The notes under the pieces: model-generated
Seen by the model: only the letters and a program-made list of their open reading frames with translations
Told to the model about the DNA's origin: nothing
Databases searched by the model: none
Assembly (NCBI GenBank): GCA_027459705.1
Contig: DAIDHM010000238.1
Location: 1-34,655 of the forward strand
Source of the DNA: Ktedonobacteria bacterium
GTDB taxonomy: Bacteria > Chloroflexota > Ktedonobacteria > Ktedonobacterales > JACDGC01
Reading direction: 5' to 3'
DNA length: 34,655 nucleotides
In this document: positions 8,598-14,455 of the stretch, in pieces
How positions within the stretch are numbered: position 1 is the first letter of the stretch
How the letters are laid out: each line of letters begins with the position of its first letter
Translations under genes and position numbers: made by a program

Positions 8598-8637
8598 CGC
8601 CACGACGTCGGCAGGCCCACCTGCCGACGTCGTGGCG
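8598..8637. repeat. 18-bp perfect palindrome with 4-nt loop
   Basis: Arms CGCCACGACGTCGGCAGG (8598-8615) and its exact complement (8620-8637), loop CCCA. It would form a very stable hairpin on either strand. There is no adjacent T-tract and no gene end close by: the isomerase stop is 450 bp upstream. It resembles the T-less hairpins found at gene ends in this window. Confidence 0.8.
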
Positions 8638-8809: not shown

Positions 8810-8840
8810 TTGACAAATATCAATGCAATTTGTTTATAAT
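8810..8840 (+). promoter_or_regulatory. Strong sigma70-type promoter in an AT-rich patch
   Basis: Perfect TTGACA (8810-8815) followed by TTTATAAT (8833-8840); the -10 can be read as TTTATA with a 17-nt spacer or TATAAT with 19. Transcription would start near 8847. The first credible gene downstream is the secreted peptide at 9183, which would have a leader of about 335 nt; a separate non-coding RNA is also possible. Confidence 0.6.
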
Positions 8841-9105: not shown

Positions 9106-9127
9106 CTGAGAGCGCTCGTGCTCTCAG
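9106..9127. repeat. Inverted repeat upstream of the peptide gene
   Basis: CTGAGAGC (9106-9113), loop GCTCGT, GCTCTCAG (9120-9127), directly followed by TATACC (9128-9133), which could be a -10 element. A second small repeat ATCGCT-G-AGCGAT lies at 9141-9153. Either could be an operator or leader hairpin controlling the peptide gene 56 bp downstream. Confidence 0.5.
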
Positions 9128-9182
9128 TATACCATCTCATATCGCTGAGCGATAGCTATGGTGACTGAAAGGAAATTTACCC

Positions 9183-9353
9183 ATGAACATGGTACGGCGC
9201 ATTCAACTCTTCGCCATCGCAACCCTGACTGCCTGCGGCCTGGGTGTTGCAGTCTTCGCAACCCCCATTGCCAGCCACTTCGCCACCGCGACGAATTCGT
9301 CGCATGTGCGTCAGTTGGCCTGCGACGGTACCCTCTCGCCGCCGTGCAACTGA
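9183..9353 (+). CDS. Small secreted peptide precursor (56 aa), candidate signalling or cyclic peptide
   Basis: Start ATG 9183 has an AAAGG site about 10 nt upstream. The protein has a textbook Sec signal: basic MNMVRRIQ, hydrophobic core LFAIATLTACGLGVAVFA, then AxA-like cleavage options after residue 26 or 34. The mature C-terminus ends in HVRQLACDGTLSPPCN with Cys47 and Cys55, which could close a small disulfide loop. LTAC at 15-18 resembles a lipobox, but the hydrophobic stretch continues after that Cys, so a lipoprotein is less likely. A hairpin (9365-9407) follows 12 nt after the stop, and the TPR-protein gene starts 187 nt downstream on the same strand. Its function is unknown; small secreted precursors beside TPR receptors are the hallmark of RRNPP-type signalling (inference). 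Confidence 0.6.
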   Translation: MNMVRRIQLFAIATLTACGLGVAVFATPIASHFATATNSSHVRQLACDGTLSPPCN

Positions 9354-9364
9354 GCAGAGCCTGA

Positions 9365-9407
9365 GCGACATGGAGGGTGGCCCTGTGCCAACCGCCCTCC
9401 ATGTCGC
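9365..9407 (+). terminator. Strong hairpin after the peptide gene
   Basis: Arms GCGACATGGAGGGTGG (9365-9380) and CCGCCCTCCATGTCGC (9392-9407), 16 bp with one G-U pair and an 11-nt loop. No T-tract follows. It probably ends or attenuates transcription between the abundant peptide message and the downstream TPR gene. Confidence 0.65.
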
Positions 9408-9539
9408 CATGCCAGTGGCGATCACATGTAGGACTCGAGTGAAATGGACCTTGGGTGCCCCCTTGCACTTCGTGATATGATTCGAGATAGAGTATGCTCT
9501 AAGCTTGTTATCATCGGCTATGATACAGGGGGGGTATCC

Positions 9540-10859
9540 ATGAAGGATCCTATCCGCTGGCATTTTCTGGGACCGCTTGAGGAGTCAATCGGCCAGAGCA
9601 GTGATCCATTTTTGCTGCAGTTGCTGTCTTGGGTTAACGATGAAGATCATCGCCCTGAGGCTGTTTTTCGCTTTCAAGATCTTGAGCGTCAGTGCGCACT
9701 GACCAACTACACGCCCGCCGACCTGAGGTCAACGTTTTACCTGGGCGGTCAGATGCTCTACAAGTTCGACCGCTTCGATGATGCGCTGAAAGCCTTCGAG
9801 CATGCCGAAGCGCTGCGAGATCCCGCTGATAAGATTGACGAGATCGTGCTGCTCCGTTATCGCGACTTAGCTGCGCATCGCGCGCATGAATTCGAGCGAT
9901 CGAATGACTACTCCGCACGTTTGATCGAGCTTTGGGTCAAAGCTCCGGTGTCTCTCCGCGAGGACTGTCTGGTGGAGGATGGTGACGCATTCTTGTGCAA
10001 TTTATATCGCATGAGAGCGCAGGTTTTATTGCAGCTGGGTAACATCACAAAGGCTCGCGAACTGTTAGTCGACTTTGCCATGCCGCTGTTAAACCAGCAT
10101 ATTGAAATATTCTCCGCCCCGCCATCCAACGCTCAAAGCGAGATCAACTGGCGCGCATTACGCCTCTATGTTCCGTGGCAACTGGTGAATACGATCCAGC
10201 AACAGGTCTGGACATATCATGAGCAGGAATTATCCGCGGATTACATCGATGCTGATGTACTGCTCCAGGATTGCATCTCGTGGGCGGAATCGCAGACCGA
10301 GCTTGCCAGCGCCTTGCCGCTCTTGTACACGCTGAGGACGGAGTTGATGAATCATCAGTGCCGTGTTGCAAGGAACGCGGAAGTTCGCGACATTATGAGT
10401 TTTACTGCCGACGGGTTTCTAGATGATGCCGCGAAGCTCTATTCTCCGCTGCAAGACAACGCTGATCAACGTGCGTATCACCTGGCCCTCCAGATCGCGG
10501 AACTGGAACGCAGTTGGATTGACTACCTGGGTGAGAATCGACTTGAGCAGGCACCCATAGTGCTCAGTCGCATCGAGAAACTACAGCGCGAAGCTCAGGC
10601 AGAGCCTACACCGCCTTTCAGGGTCATTGCGGCGCGGCTGGAATGGTTGAAGGGGATCATAGAAGCGGATCGCGAATATTGCGATCCCGAGCGATTCCCA
10701 CGGGCATTTGAAGCAGCTAGAGCGCACTTGCAGCGCGCGCGGGACATGCTGATCGAAGCGAAATTGACGCAGGTCCCGATCATGCTTGGCATCCTCGCCG
10801 ACCTTAACCGGCTCGAAGGGCGTGAATACCAGGGTCCTCGTGACCGCGGCATGTGGTAG
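9540..10859 (+). CDS. TPR-like helical repeat protein without DNA-binding domain (RRNPP-receptor-like)
   Basis: 439 residues from ATG 9540, preceded by a GGGGGG-containing site; the frame is open from 9444 but that part looks like leader. The protein is soluble and almost entirely helical. TPR-type helix pairs are visible at about 62-95 (LRSTFYLGGQMLYKFDRFDD, then ALKAFEHAE) and about 155-185 (LYRMRAQVLLQLGNITKARELL), with further amphipathic helices to the C-terminus. There is no helix-turn-helix, no catalytic motif and no membrane segment. Length and all-helical make-up resemble Rap-type peptide receptors (about 380 residues), but generic TPR scaffolds look the same at this level. The link to the upstream secreted peptide rests on position only. 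Confidence 0.75.
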   Translation: MKDPIRWHFLGPLEESIGQSSDPFLLQLLSWVNDEDHRPEAVFRFQDLERQCALTNYTPADLRSTFYLGGQMLYKFDRFDDALKAFEHAEALRDPADKIDEIVLLRYRDLAAHRAHEFERSNDYSARLIELWVKAPVSLREDCLVEDGDAFLCNLYRMRAQVLLQLGNITKARELLVDFAMPLLNQHIEIFSAPPSNAQSEINWRALRLYVPWQLVNTIQQQVWTYHEQELSADYIDADVLLQDCISWAESQTELASALPLLYTLRTELMNHQCRVARNAEVRDIMSFTADGFLDDAAKLYSPLQDNADQRAYHLALQIAELERSWIDYLGENRLEQAPIVLSRIEKLQREAQAEPTPPFRVIAARLEWLKGIIEADREYCDPERFPRAFEAARAHLQRARDMLIEAKLTQVPIMLGILADLNRLEGREYQGPRDRGMW

Positions 10860-10965: not shown

Positions 10966-11967
10966 TCACGTCCAGCGCAGGTTAGGCAGCACCTCGCGGC
11001 TATACGCCGCGAGGAATGCTTCCTGGTTACGACCGACATTGTGAACATACACTTCGGTGAATCCCATGTCGATGAAGTGTTGGATATGCGCGACATGCTC
11101 ACCGAGATCTGGCGTCACCAGGACGCGGTTGGTATAATGCTCAGGTCGCACGAAAGCGGCCATCGCCGCGAAATCTTCGGGGTTCCGGATGTCGGCCTTG
11201 GGGAAGGGCATCCCACCATTTGGCCACTCCTTCACGGCTTGCGCCATGGCCGTCTCGCGTGAATCCGCCCACGAGACATGAAGCTGGATGACACGCGGCA
11301 TGGTCGCGGGATCTTTGCCGGCGTCGCGCGCGCCGCGCTCGAAGCGCTCCAGCAACATCCCCAGCTTCTCATCGGATGCACCGACGCTCATGAAGCCATC
11401 CGCGAATTTGCCGGTCTTTTCACTATTCAGTGGGCCGGCGGTCGCGACGATAATCGGCGGTGGCGCGGCTGGCAACGTGTAGAGCTTGGCGCTCTCCAGC
11501 TGAACATGTTTGCCATGGTATTTGACGACCTTGCCGCCAAAGAGCTTCTTGATGACCTCGATCGCTTCGAAAAGGATCTCGGAGCGCTCGCCACCTTCGG
11601 GCCAATACTCGCCGACGATATGTTCGTTGAGTGCCTCACCAGCGCCAATGCCAAGGTAAAACCGCCCCGGATACATTGCTTCCAGGGTCGCTGCCGCTTG
11701 CGCCAGGATCGCCGGATGGTAGCGGAAGCCGGGCGCCGTGACGCCTGTGCCGAATCGCAGATTGGTGGTGGCGCCCACCGCGCTAAGCCAGGCCCAGACG
11801 AACGCGCTCTGCCCCTGGCTCGGCGTCCACGGATGAAAGTGATCAGACGCCATCACAGCTTTGAATCCGTGATCTTCCGCCATTTTAGTATAGCGTAGCA
11901 GTTCCGTCGGGTGGAATTGTTCGAACATGGCGGCATACCCCAGGATGCCCTGTGGTGCTGTGGTCAT
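10966..11967 (-). CDS. F420-dependent LLM-class oxidoreductase, G6PDH (FGD-like) family
   Basis: 333-residue luciferase-like TIM barrel that transfers hydride to or from coenzyme F420. The N-terminus (ILGYAAMFEQFHPTELLRYT) and the segment ASDHFHPWTPSQGQSAFVWAWLS are typical of the subfamily named after F420-dependent glucose-6-phosphate dehydrogenase; the mid-region GRFYLGIGAGEALNEH is the usual cofactor-phosphate part. AAGGAG precedes ATG 11967. It lies 30 bp after cofE in the same direction, so cofactor makers and user are probably co-transcribed. The substrate may be glucose-6-phosphate, generating F420H2, but many family members use other alcohols or aldehydes, so I do not assign fgd. Confidence 0.85.
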   Translation of the reverse strand: MTTAPQGILGYAAMFEQFHPTELLRYTKMAEDHGFKAVMASDHFHPWTPSQGQSAFVWAWLSAVGATTNLRFGTGVTAPGFRYHPAILAQAAATLEAMYPGRFYLGIGAGEALNEHIVGEYWPEGGERSEILFEAIEVIKKLFGGKVVKYHGKHVQLESAKLYTLPAAPPPIIVATAGPLNSEKTGKFADGFMSVGASDEKLGMLLERFERGARDAGKDPATMPRVIQLHVSWADSRETAMAQAVKEWPNGGMPFPKADIRNPEDFAAMAAFVRPEHYTNRVLVTPDLGEHVAHIQHFIDMGFTEVYVHNVGRNQEAFLAAYSREVLPNLRWT

Positions 11968-11997
11968 GATATGCTCCTTACTGCGTAGATGAATGGT

Positions 11998-12753
11998 TCA
12001 ACGGAAGAGATCGCGCGTGGGATCCATGACGAGATCGCGTCCCTGGCCCGCGCCAGTGGGGGCGGCATAGCCGCGGATGACGGCGACGGGACAACGATTG
12101 ACCTTGCCATGGGCAAGCTCGGCGGCGCTGGCAAGCTCATCGGCGATGGCCAGCACCGTGACATGCATCTCTCGGCCTTCGGTGTCGGGCTGGCCACGAT
12201 AGTCGACCAACGCCGCCATCCCGGCGACACCGATGGCGATGTTGGTAATGCCATTGCGCCAAGGGCGACCAAAGCTATCGGTGATAATCACGGGGACAGC
12301 GAAGCCGCACCAGGCACTTACCACGTCGGCGATACGCCGCGCCGAGGCGTCGGGATCAATCGGGAGGAGGCAGACGGTCTCCTCGCCGGGGATATTCGAT
12401 GCATCCACACCCGCATTGGCGCAGATGAACCCGTGTCGCGTCTCGCAGATCAGCACACCCCGATCCATCCGCACGATGCGCCTGGACTCGCGGAGCACGA
12501 CCTCTGTCTGGCGCGGATCCTTCTCCCAGCGCTCGGCCCAATCAATCGCCAAGGCCGAAGGCGTGATAGTTCGCAGATCTACCAGGCGATCTTCGGCCTT
12601 GGAGACGACCTTCTGGGTGACGACCAGGATGTCGCCCGGAACCAGCGGCAGAGGTCGTGCGGCCGCCCAGATCAGCGCGCCGAGGTCATCGCCGGGCCGC
12701 ACCTCAGGAATATCGGGAATGCCGAAGATTTGGATAGGTGGGGGGATCGTCAA
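11998..12753 (-). CDS. cofE: Coenzyme F420-0:L-glutamate ligase
   Basis: 251 residues; adds glutamates to F420-0 in a GTP-dependent reaction, the last step of tail building. Family hallmarks are GDILVVTQKVVSKAEDR near the N-terminus, ETRHGFICANAGVDASN, and ITDSFGRPWRNG. The start is a TTG at 12753 overlapping the cofC stop (TTGA), with AGGAGG 7 nt before it. The length matches the stand-alone archaeal type; the C-terminal FMN-dependent reductase domain of actinobacterial FbiB is absent, so if dehydro-F420 intermediates are made here, another protein must reduce them. It lies in a cofD-cofC-cofE-oxidoreductase operon. Confidence 0.93.
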   Translation of the reverse strand: MTIPPPIQIFGIPDIPEVRPGDDLGALIWAAARPLPLVPGDILVVTQKVVSKAEDRLVDLRTITPSALAIDWAERWEKDPRQTEVVLRESRRIVRMDRGVLICETRHGFICANAGVDASNIPGEETVCLLPIDPDASARRIADVVSAWCGFAVPVIITDSFGRPWRNGITNIAIGVAGMAALVDYRGQPDTEGREMHVTVLAIADELASAAELAHGKVNRCPVAVIRGYAAPTGAGQGRDLVMDPTRDLFR

Positions 12754-13442
12754 GGCAGCACCTCCTGCGCCACCAGCATGGCGGCGAGATCAAGTGGAAA
12801 GGTGGGGTCAATGGCCTGGGTAGCGCGCCAGAGATCGACCGCCCCTGACCAGTGGAGCGCGAGATCGCGCAGATCCGCAGGCGTATCAAGATCACACGCA
12901 AACTCTGGGAGATCACACGTGGCCAGCGCCAGACCGCGTTGTCGCGCCTCTGTGCTGTGGCGGGCAAAGCTCGCGGCGCCGAAGCACCACGGCATGCTGC
13001 CGGGAGGCGCGACGAGTAGCGCGTTTGTGCCGTCGCCGATCTGGTCGCTGGCAAGGCAGACGGCTGGCGCGGGCGGTATCCCCGCAACCAGCATACGAAT
13101 TGCCGCGGGCGTGATCCGCGGGAGATCGGCGGGCAAGACGAGCAGCGCCTCAGCAGCGTGCGATTGCGCCCATTGCGTCGCGACATCAAGCGCGGCGTTC
13201 AGTCCCTGATCGCATTGGTGCAGCGTTTCGACCGTGCGGTTCTCACTGACACGCGCCATAATTGCCGGGTCAGGGGCGATGAGGGCAACGCGTGTTGCCA
13301 CACCAGATTCAACCAGCGCGTCAAGGACACGCCGCGCCAAAGCGATGAGTAAGGCCTGACGCCAGGCATCAGGGAGAATCGGTCGGAGGCGGCTTTTGCC
13401 ACTGGCGAGGTCGCGCAATGGCATGATGGCGGCCAGACTCAT
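12750..13442 (-). CDS. cofC: 2-phospho-L-lactate (or phosphoenolpyruvate/3-phosphoglycerate) guanylyltransferase
   Basis: 230 residues; activates a three-carbon phosphoacid with GTP for transfer onto the deazaflavin Fo. The nucleotidyltransferase fold is seen from the N-terminal MPLRDLASGKSRLRPIL (phosphate-binding loop with K17) through LLVLPADLPRI (metal-binding Asp) to DGTNALLVAPPG and CDLDTPADLRDL. Which phosphoacid is used (2-phospholactate, PEP or 3-phosphoglycerate) cannot be told by eye. ATG overlaps the cofD stop by 4 nt (ATGA), and the gene's own stop overlaps the cofE start, which implies tight translational coupling. Confidence 0.92.
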   Translation of the reverse strand: MSLAAIMPLRDLASGKSRLRPILPDAWRQALLIALARRVLDALVESGVATRVALIAPDPAIMARVSENRTVETLHQCDQGLNAALDVATQWAQSHAAEALLVLPADLPRITPAAIRMLVAGIPPAPAVCLASDQIGDGTNALLVAPPGSMPWCFGAASFARHSTEARQRGLALATCDLPEFACDLDTPADLRDLALHWSGAVDLWRATQAIDPTFPLDLAAMLVAQEVLP

Positions 13443-14383
13443 GCCTGTACCACCTGGGCGATAGCCTGGGCCAGGGCAAGGCTCGCGGCGGCATCCGTCA
13501 TGATCGTCGGGAGCACATGAGGGCGCATCCCCAATTGCGCGACCGCGGGCGCCAGGTCCGCATCGGCACTGTCCAACACGAAATCATCGACGAGACCTAC
13601 GTAGAGTCGCGCGACTCCCAGCGCTGAGACTTCATATCCCAGACCTTCCAGCATGCGATCGGCAGGGCCTTTCAATGCCTGGCCCTGGATGATCGGGCTG
13701 ACGGCTATTCGCCGCCGCCCGGCCTGACGATGCGCCAGCGCGTCGCGCATCCCGGGCAGCGCCAGGATGGGGCCAATACTTACGATGGGGTTGGAAGGAC
13801 AGAACACCACGACTTCCGCTGACCGCATCGCTTCTAAAGCGGCTGGGAGTGGCCTGGCTCGCGCGAGACCGGCGAAACGCACGTCACTGACGGGGTCCGC
13901 GTGCCGACGCCGAACGAAATATTCCTGGAAGGGCAACCAGCCATCGGGCGTCTGGATCTCGGTCGAGACGACATCATCGCTCATTGGCATGATGCGTACC
14001 CACGCGGGAATCCCCAGCCGTCGCGCGAGATCTGCCGTGACTTTCGCCAACCCGTCACCCGCGCTGAGCGCCCTCGTCCGCAGCAGGTGGGTTGCCAAAT
14101 CGCGATCTCCCAGCCAGAACCACGGATCTTCGCCCAATGTCGTCAGTTGATCGAGCACTTTGGTCGTGTCGCCAGCAATACCCCAGCCCGTCTGTGGATT
14201 GGCGATGCCCCCCAAGGTGTAGAGCACCGTATCGATATCCGGCGAGATGTGCAGACCATGCAGAGTAAAATCATCGCCGGTGTTGACGATGATCCGCAGG
14301 TCGGCGATGTTCACTGGTGTCAGTGCCATCAACCCGCGCGCCAGTTTTGCGCCACCCACGCCGCCCGCTAAAGCTGCCCACAT
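13439..14383 (-). CDS. cofD: 2-phospho-L-lactate transferase (F420 biosynthesis)
   Basis: 314 residues from ATG 14383, chosen because GAGGAG lies upstream and the protein then begins MWAALAGGVGGAKLARGL, the usual N-terminus; the frame is open to a GTG at 14431. The enzyme joins the GDP-activated phosphoacid to Fo, forming F420-0 or its dehydro form. Signatures: GGVGGAK (residues 7-13), IVNTGDDFTLHGLHISPDID, and CPSNPIVSIGPIL near residue 200. It is the first gene of the operon. Fo synthase (fbiC or cofG/cofH) is not in the window and must be encoded elsewhere. Confidence 0.93.
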   Translation of the reverse strand: MWAALAGGVGGAKLARGLMALTPVNIADLRIIVNTGDDFTLHGLHISPDIDTVLYTLGGIANPQTGWGIAGDTTKVLDQLTTLGEDPWFWLGDRDLATHLLRTRALSAGDGLAKVTADLARRLGIPAWVRIMPMSDDVVSTEIQTPDGWLPFQEYFVRRRHADPVSDVRFAGLARARPLPAALEAMRSAEVVVFCPSNPIVSIGPILALPGMRDALAHRQAGRRRIAVSPIIQGQALKGPADRMLEGLGYEVSALGVARLYVGLVDDFVLDSADADLAPAVAQLGMRPHVLPTIMTDAAASLALAQAIAQVVQA

Positions 14384-14455
14384 AGGCCGCCGCTCCTCAT
14401 GGATCAAGTCCTTGCTATTTTTTCCCGCCACGCGATTGACAGTACCCGCAAATGG

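Follow-up and report, generated by a model that had tools for sequence, protein, structure and literature searches.

The closest described counterparts of the locus reported here are the RRNPP systems of Bacillota, whose gene signature has five points: a small propeptide, Sec export, a receptor of ~250-500 aa, peptide-binding TPRs and adjacent genes (PMC10075063). Three RRNPP surveys place the family in Bacillota and their mobile elements and do not mention Chloroflexi, and searches of open-access literature, judged by titles and abstracts, yielded no report of an RRNPP system or peptide pheromone in Chloroflexota. In the Rap-Phr systems of Bacillus, an HTH-less cytosolic TPR protein adjoins a Sec-exported precursor, and several such sets occur per genome. 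PlcR-PapR, NprR-NprX and AimR-AimP (RRNPPA) likewise combine an exported precursor with an adjacent TPR receptor; their receptors carry HTH domains and their mature peptides are linear.

The window analysed here, a 34,655-bp contig (GC 0.58) from a 4.6-Mb draft genome, carries a gene pair of similar outline in Chloroflexota. The following features define it.

8810..8840, + strand: possible promoter, TTGACA-19-TATAAT, within AT-rich sequence (GC 0.29 versus 0.58 for the window), an unproven sequence reading
9106..9127, + strand: weak 8-bp stem-loop within the peptide-gene leader (regional z -2.15)
9183..9353, + strand: precursor peptide gene, 56 aa, with signal sequence and mature tail (ORF and translation; paralogue at L002; 1 of 28 such peptides)
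9321..9347, + strand: Cys47-x7-Cys55 (CDGTLSPPC), presumed 9-residue disulfide ring (Cys spacer of 6 or 7 in 28/28 peptides; spacer enrichment also seen when no signal peptide is required)
9365..9407, + strand: stem-loop with a 13-bp perfect stem, 3' of the peptide gene (z -3.65)
9540..10859, + strand: TPR protein of 439 aa without HTH, presumed to be the peptide's cytosolic receptor (ORF, Pfam, structural model and family alignment)

The peptide ORF starts with ATG behind a GGAAA box, which reads as a good ribosome site, and its product is MNMVRRIQLFAIATLTACGLGVAVFATPIASHFATATNSSHVRQLACDGTLSPPCN. A basic start and a hydrophobic core are followed by ...NSSHVRQLACDGTLSPPCN. The signal peptide that the original prediction assigned to this 56-codon gene was recognized by a hydropathy rule as a Sec-type signal sequence, and the two Cys of the predicted tail lie at the end of the precursor as C-x7-C. 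The hairpins said to flank the gene are both present, the downstream one being the stronger. This downstream stem-loop is likely a transcript end or a stabiliser between peptide and receptor; 3' stems were longer at peptide genes than at control genes (Mann-Whitney p 6e-4). The possible promoter was not reported by a consensus promoter scan, for which its spacer is too long, and another pair from this genome (L002) has TTGACA-18-TATAAT at the equivalent position. Nothing unusual surrounds the window pair: a TIM-barrel protein is encoded upstream, and a block for cofactor F420 lies downstream on the other strand (10966-14431, - strand: luciferase-like oxidoreductase, CofE, CofC and CofD). A long perfect palindrome at 8600-8635 (ccacgacgtcggcagg/cctgccgacgtcgtgg) is likely an intergenic terminator.

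The frame of the TPR gene opens at 9444 (471 aa), with 9540 as the likely start. As had been predicted for the 439-aa product, the AlphaFold model is all-helical and Pfam detected no DNA-binding domain; a transmembrane stretch was not found in it either. Its Pfam TPR matches are sub-threshold, and TPR families were matched in most of the 30 family members that we aligned. The model of one relative is mostly helical. Both AlphaFold models are of low confidence and too weak to reveal a groove for the peptide or a conserved Asn. They are poor at the N-terminus, the region of the 3-helix bundle that acts on a response regulator in the Rap subfamily. Most relatives measure 360-490 aa, with two longer proteins (563 and 623 aa) bearing an added N-terminus and one of 206 aa at L088. 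Short TPR proteins (175-275 aa) were observed between the peptide and the long TPR gene, or alone with a peptide (L035:2219-2746, L087:6370-7197 and L088:3549-4169); these are possibly truncated or second receptors.

We then asked how widely the pair recurs. Searching its own genome with the window TPR protein returned one relative (E 1.6e-24), and a 63-aa precursor lies directly upstream of that relative. The two precursors share 34% identity and the common motif SSHVxQxxCxG...PxC, and the exact pattern [S]HVxQxxCxG occurs at only two places in the genome, which are these precursors. Querying named genomes with the window TPR protein alone gave no match because the receptor diverges fast, and profiles were therefore needed. 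Growing profiles, later with those of family f3 added, were run against 47 genomes from four families of the class Ktedonobacteria. They yielded further pairs in another genus (L035), a third genus (L087 and L088) and a second family (L093, L124 and L130), and many more once the f3 profiles had joined the search. Two homologous loci (L134 and L135) belong to MAGs named 'Ktedonobacterales bacterium'.

Altogether, the profile searches of the 47 genomes found 34 HTH-less TPR loci, and 27 of these had, within 1 kb on the same strand, a signal-peptide ORF with a C-terminal Cys pair. The pairs span 14 genomes, 11 genera and two families of soil Ktedonobacterales; all 11 genomes examined in family f3 and 3/6 in the family of the window contain them, and a single genome (G017) holds four loci with five peptides. 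The peptide lies upstream of the receptor gene at 24 of the paired loci, downstream at two (L220 and L221) and on both sides at one (L232), with gaps of 61-761 nt. No peptide was found at the other seven (L086, L125, L126, L217, L229, L225 at a contig edge and the partial L227). Tandem TPR-family genes with no peptide found nearby occur at L125:4996-7743 and L086:6887-9826, and may read a peptide made elsewhere. The prediction had called for a search for the pair in related genomes, and had named as refuting outcomes a peptide frame lacking conservation and TPR homologues regularly found without a peptide gene. The search succeeded at 27/34 loci, the frame is kept throughout the 14 genomes (11 genera), where the two-Cys tail of the peptide varies least, and homologues of the TPR protein are not regularly peptide-less.

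The peptides share a common anatomy of signal sequence, variable middle often containing SH or TH, and C-terminal Cys pair. The window precursor has 56 aa and its relatives ~49-103 aa, with several start codons uncertain. A basic n-region and hydrophobic core are present in 28/28, as judged by the hydropathy rule rather than SignalP, the rule itself being a search criterion. The Cys pair often follows the consensus C-[G/D/P]-G-x(2-4)-P-C with mostly 0-2 residues beyond it, and the spacer between the Cys is 6 in 16 peptides and 7 in 12, with none of 5 or 8. A disulfide could close the last eight or nine residues into a ring. The orthologous peptide genes at L124 and L093 differ at 18/12/32 sites of codon positions 1/2/3, so these peptides look translated and constrained.

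Under identical criteria, a background of 246 genes (394 kb from the same genome) contained just 2 with such a neighbour, neither with a spacer of 6 or 7, and 50 other TPR loci (162 kb) contained one such ORF. Five background ORFs that fitted the definition all had spacers other than 6 or 7. When the signal-peptide filter was removed, spacers of 6 and 7 accounted for 19 and 13 ORFs beside TPR genes, every other spacer for 0-7, and the background was flat. The pairing is far beyond chance. Scanning the order with the Cys motif as a DNA pattern gave mostly chance matches besides the known pairs, and one candidate peptide (G005:C131) was rejected as it sits inside an unrelated reading frame.

The nearest outside relatives of the TPR family, from Ktedonobacterales and other classes, have an XRE helix-turn-helix at the N-terminus and form one well supported tree group (100/100); the tree has many long branches and its root is not fixed (row L234a, out of frame, was left out of the reading). 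No peptide was found at the XRE-TPR relatives checked in Ktedonobacterales, family f4 and other classes. This arrangement, with peptide-less HTH-bearing TPR proteins as the nearest outside group, parallels the loss of the HTH from an HTH-TPR ancestor proposed as the founding event for Rap (PMC12700828). Two XRE-TPR genes were observed in particular settings. A 776-aa XRE-HTH and TPR protein (L003:8215-10545, - strand) is convergent with the L002 pair; it was rejected as a partner of that pair, having no paralogue in the genome and no repetition at other pairs. At L270:1157-5860 (G046:C556), identical XRE-TPR and neighbour genes stand inverted on one contig, as an inverted duplication or assembly artefact.

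Compared with the RRNPP signature (PMC10075063), all five points were found at the gene level, with export judged by the hydropathy rule and TPR binding predicted. Among natural bacterial chains, the best matches of the TPR profile were Rap phosphatases (RapJ 9e-13, RapF, Rap3T and RapI), with designed TPRs and eukaryotic LGN scoring higher. Of two fold searches with the low-confidence models, the first gave no RRNPP-specific match and the second placed Rap only within the top 50. Since the gene criteria agree and receptor homology is inconclusive, we file the pair as a variant that would work like RRNPP systems, not as a proven member. It resembles Rap-Phr in its HTH-less TPR protein next to an exported precursor and in the multiple sets of G017, and differs in occurring in Chloroflexota, in a peptide gene that is mostly upstream and apparently a separate unit, in the Cys-pair tail and in having no Spo0F or ComA-type target established; the likeness shown is at the generic TPR level. 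From PlcR-PapR, NprR-NprX and AimR-AimP, it is set apart by HTH-less receptors and the Cys-pair peptide.

The outline of exported precursor and TPR receptor stands because the conservation test and the peptide-pairing test both came out in its favour. The best reading of these sequences, mostly from draft genomes, is a small exported precursor with a cytosolic TPR receptor, outside Firmicutes and with a disulfide-type peptide, and we consider it probable that the two form a peptide communication pair operating in the manner of RRNPP systems from Bacillota. The precursor would be exported through Sec, as its signal sequence suggests, and trimmed to a C-terminal fragment with C-x7-C, which probably closes by a disulfide outside the cell. 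The mature peptide would then be re-imported, presumably via an oligopeptide permease; we infer that cytosolic reduction of the ring form would leave a linear peptide. It may bind the inner face of the TPR solenoid encoded by the neighbouring gene and thereby alter what the TPR protein holds. Because the TPR protein has no DNA-binding domain, its output would be by protein-protein contact, as in Rap. Peptide and receptor appear to be separate transcription units with a strong hairpin between them.

At two or more of the related loci, the TPR protein probably partners an ECF-type sigma factor whose gene adjoins its own. At L221:1438-4104, the order is an ECF-type sigma gene (Sigma70_r4_2, 3e-9), a TPR protein with HLADCAWC near its start, and the peptide; at L220:1473-4568, it is a protein that matches sigma region 4 (3e-7), a TPR protein with HLAECETC, and the peptide. 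The Hx3Cx2C motif characterizes zinc anti-sigma domains. As this motif stands at the N-terminus beside a sigma gene, the TPR protein of these two loci is probably, judging from sequence, an anti-sigma factor, and peptide binding may free the sigma factor, making a peptide-controlled sigma/anti-sigma switch possible. The gene order resembles that of ECF sigma and zinc-binding anti-sigma pairs, and differs in using a TPR domain as sensor and in having a peptide gene next in line. Neither a sigma gene nor the zinc motif was found at the window locus, and no neighbour genes are common to most paired loci; by analogy with Rap, the window pair may act on a distant partner. More tentatively, and with rather less confidence than for the pair itself, we suggest that Ktedonobacterales may possess an independently evolved family of intercellular peptide systems. 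In these, exported precursors would release a disulfide-closed C-x6/7-C pheromone to be read by cytosolic TPR receptors without HTH, which would be kin to XRE-TPR regulators and in some cases act as anti-sigma factors, releasing an ECF sigma factor on peptide binding.

Other explanations were weighed against this communication pair. The peptide might be a secreted effector (an antimicrobial, a peptide of wall or matrix, or a redox or metal binder) that the TPR protein regulates or protects from, rather than one re-imported to it. Small Cys-pair peptides are indeed common effectors, but genes for modification, a protease or dedicated export do not recur beside the pairs, the ring has only 8-9 residues of variable content, the constant partner is a receptor-type protein, and the ECF-type sigma genes at two loci point to regulation; we regard this as unlikely. 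A RiPP precursor was set aside, with no modifying enzymes nearby.

The main alternative is a cis-acting leader or arrest peptide, as in SecM-secA, TnaC or cysteine-codon attenuators, in which the ribosome would stall near the Pro-Cys end and the hairpin would control the TPR gene. The usual order of peptide, strong hairpin and TPR gene fits this and is that of SecM-secA secretion-monitor leaders, where a signal-peptide ORF and hairpin precede the regulated gene. Many tails also end in Pro-Pro-Cys-x or Leu-Pro-Cys-stop, and Pro near the stop favours ribosome stalling. The reading is weakened because the peptide can follow the TPR gene, as at L220 and L221, or stand on both sides of it, as at L232, and the gaps to the receptor range from 61 to 761 nt. 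The conserved part is a ring-type tail; as its Cys pair is fixed in spacing and the residues between are largely free, it suits a ring better than an arrest motif. Stalling in cis is therefore, in our judgement, distinctly unlikely.

Disulfide-closed peptides would also suit extracellular sensing, and membrane kinases serve as receptors for cyclic pheromones such as AgrD products. A different receptor sensing the peptide at the cell surface, with the TPR protein only sharing its regulon, is nevertheless very improbable, given that no membrane kinase recurs beside the pairs and the constant neighbour is a TPR gene. Short ORFs are common, but a fortuitous ORF next to an ordinary TPR gene is already refuted statistically and has a negligible probability in view of 27/34 against 2/246, the Cys spacing confined to 6 or 7 and the codon-position bias between L124 and L093.

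These results suggest a previously unreported means of peptide communication in Chloroflexota, a phylum that seems to have no known example, and its disulfide-type peptide is unusual for an RRNPP-like system. Cultured Ktedonobacterales form mycelia and spores. If the reading is correct, peptide quorum sensing through cytosolic TPR proteins, described in the literature consulted only for Bacillota and their mobile elements, would have arisen or persisted in another phylum, and the recurrent, multi-copy Ktedonobacterales family would be an outgroup of the kind asked for by structural phylogeny (PMC12700828). It would also introduce ring-closed pheromones and suggest a direct route from peptide to sigma factor.
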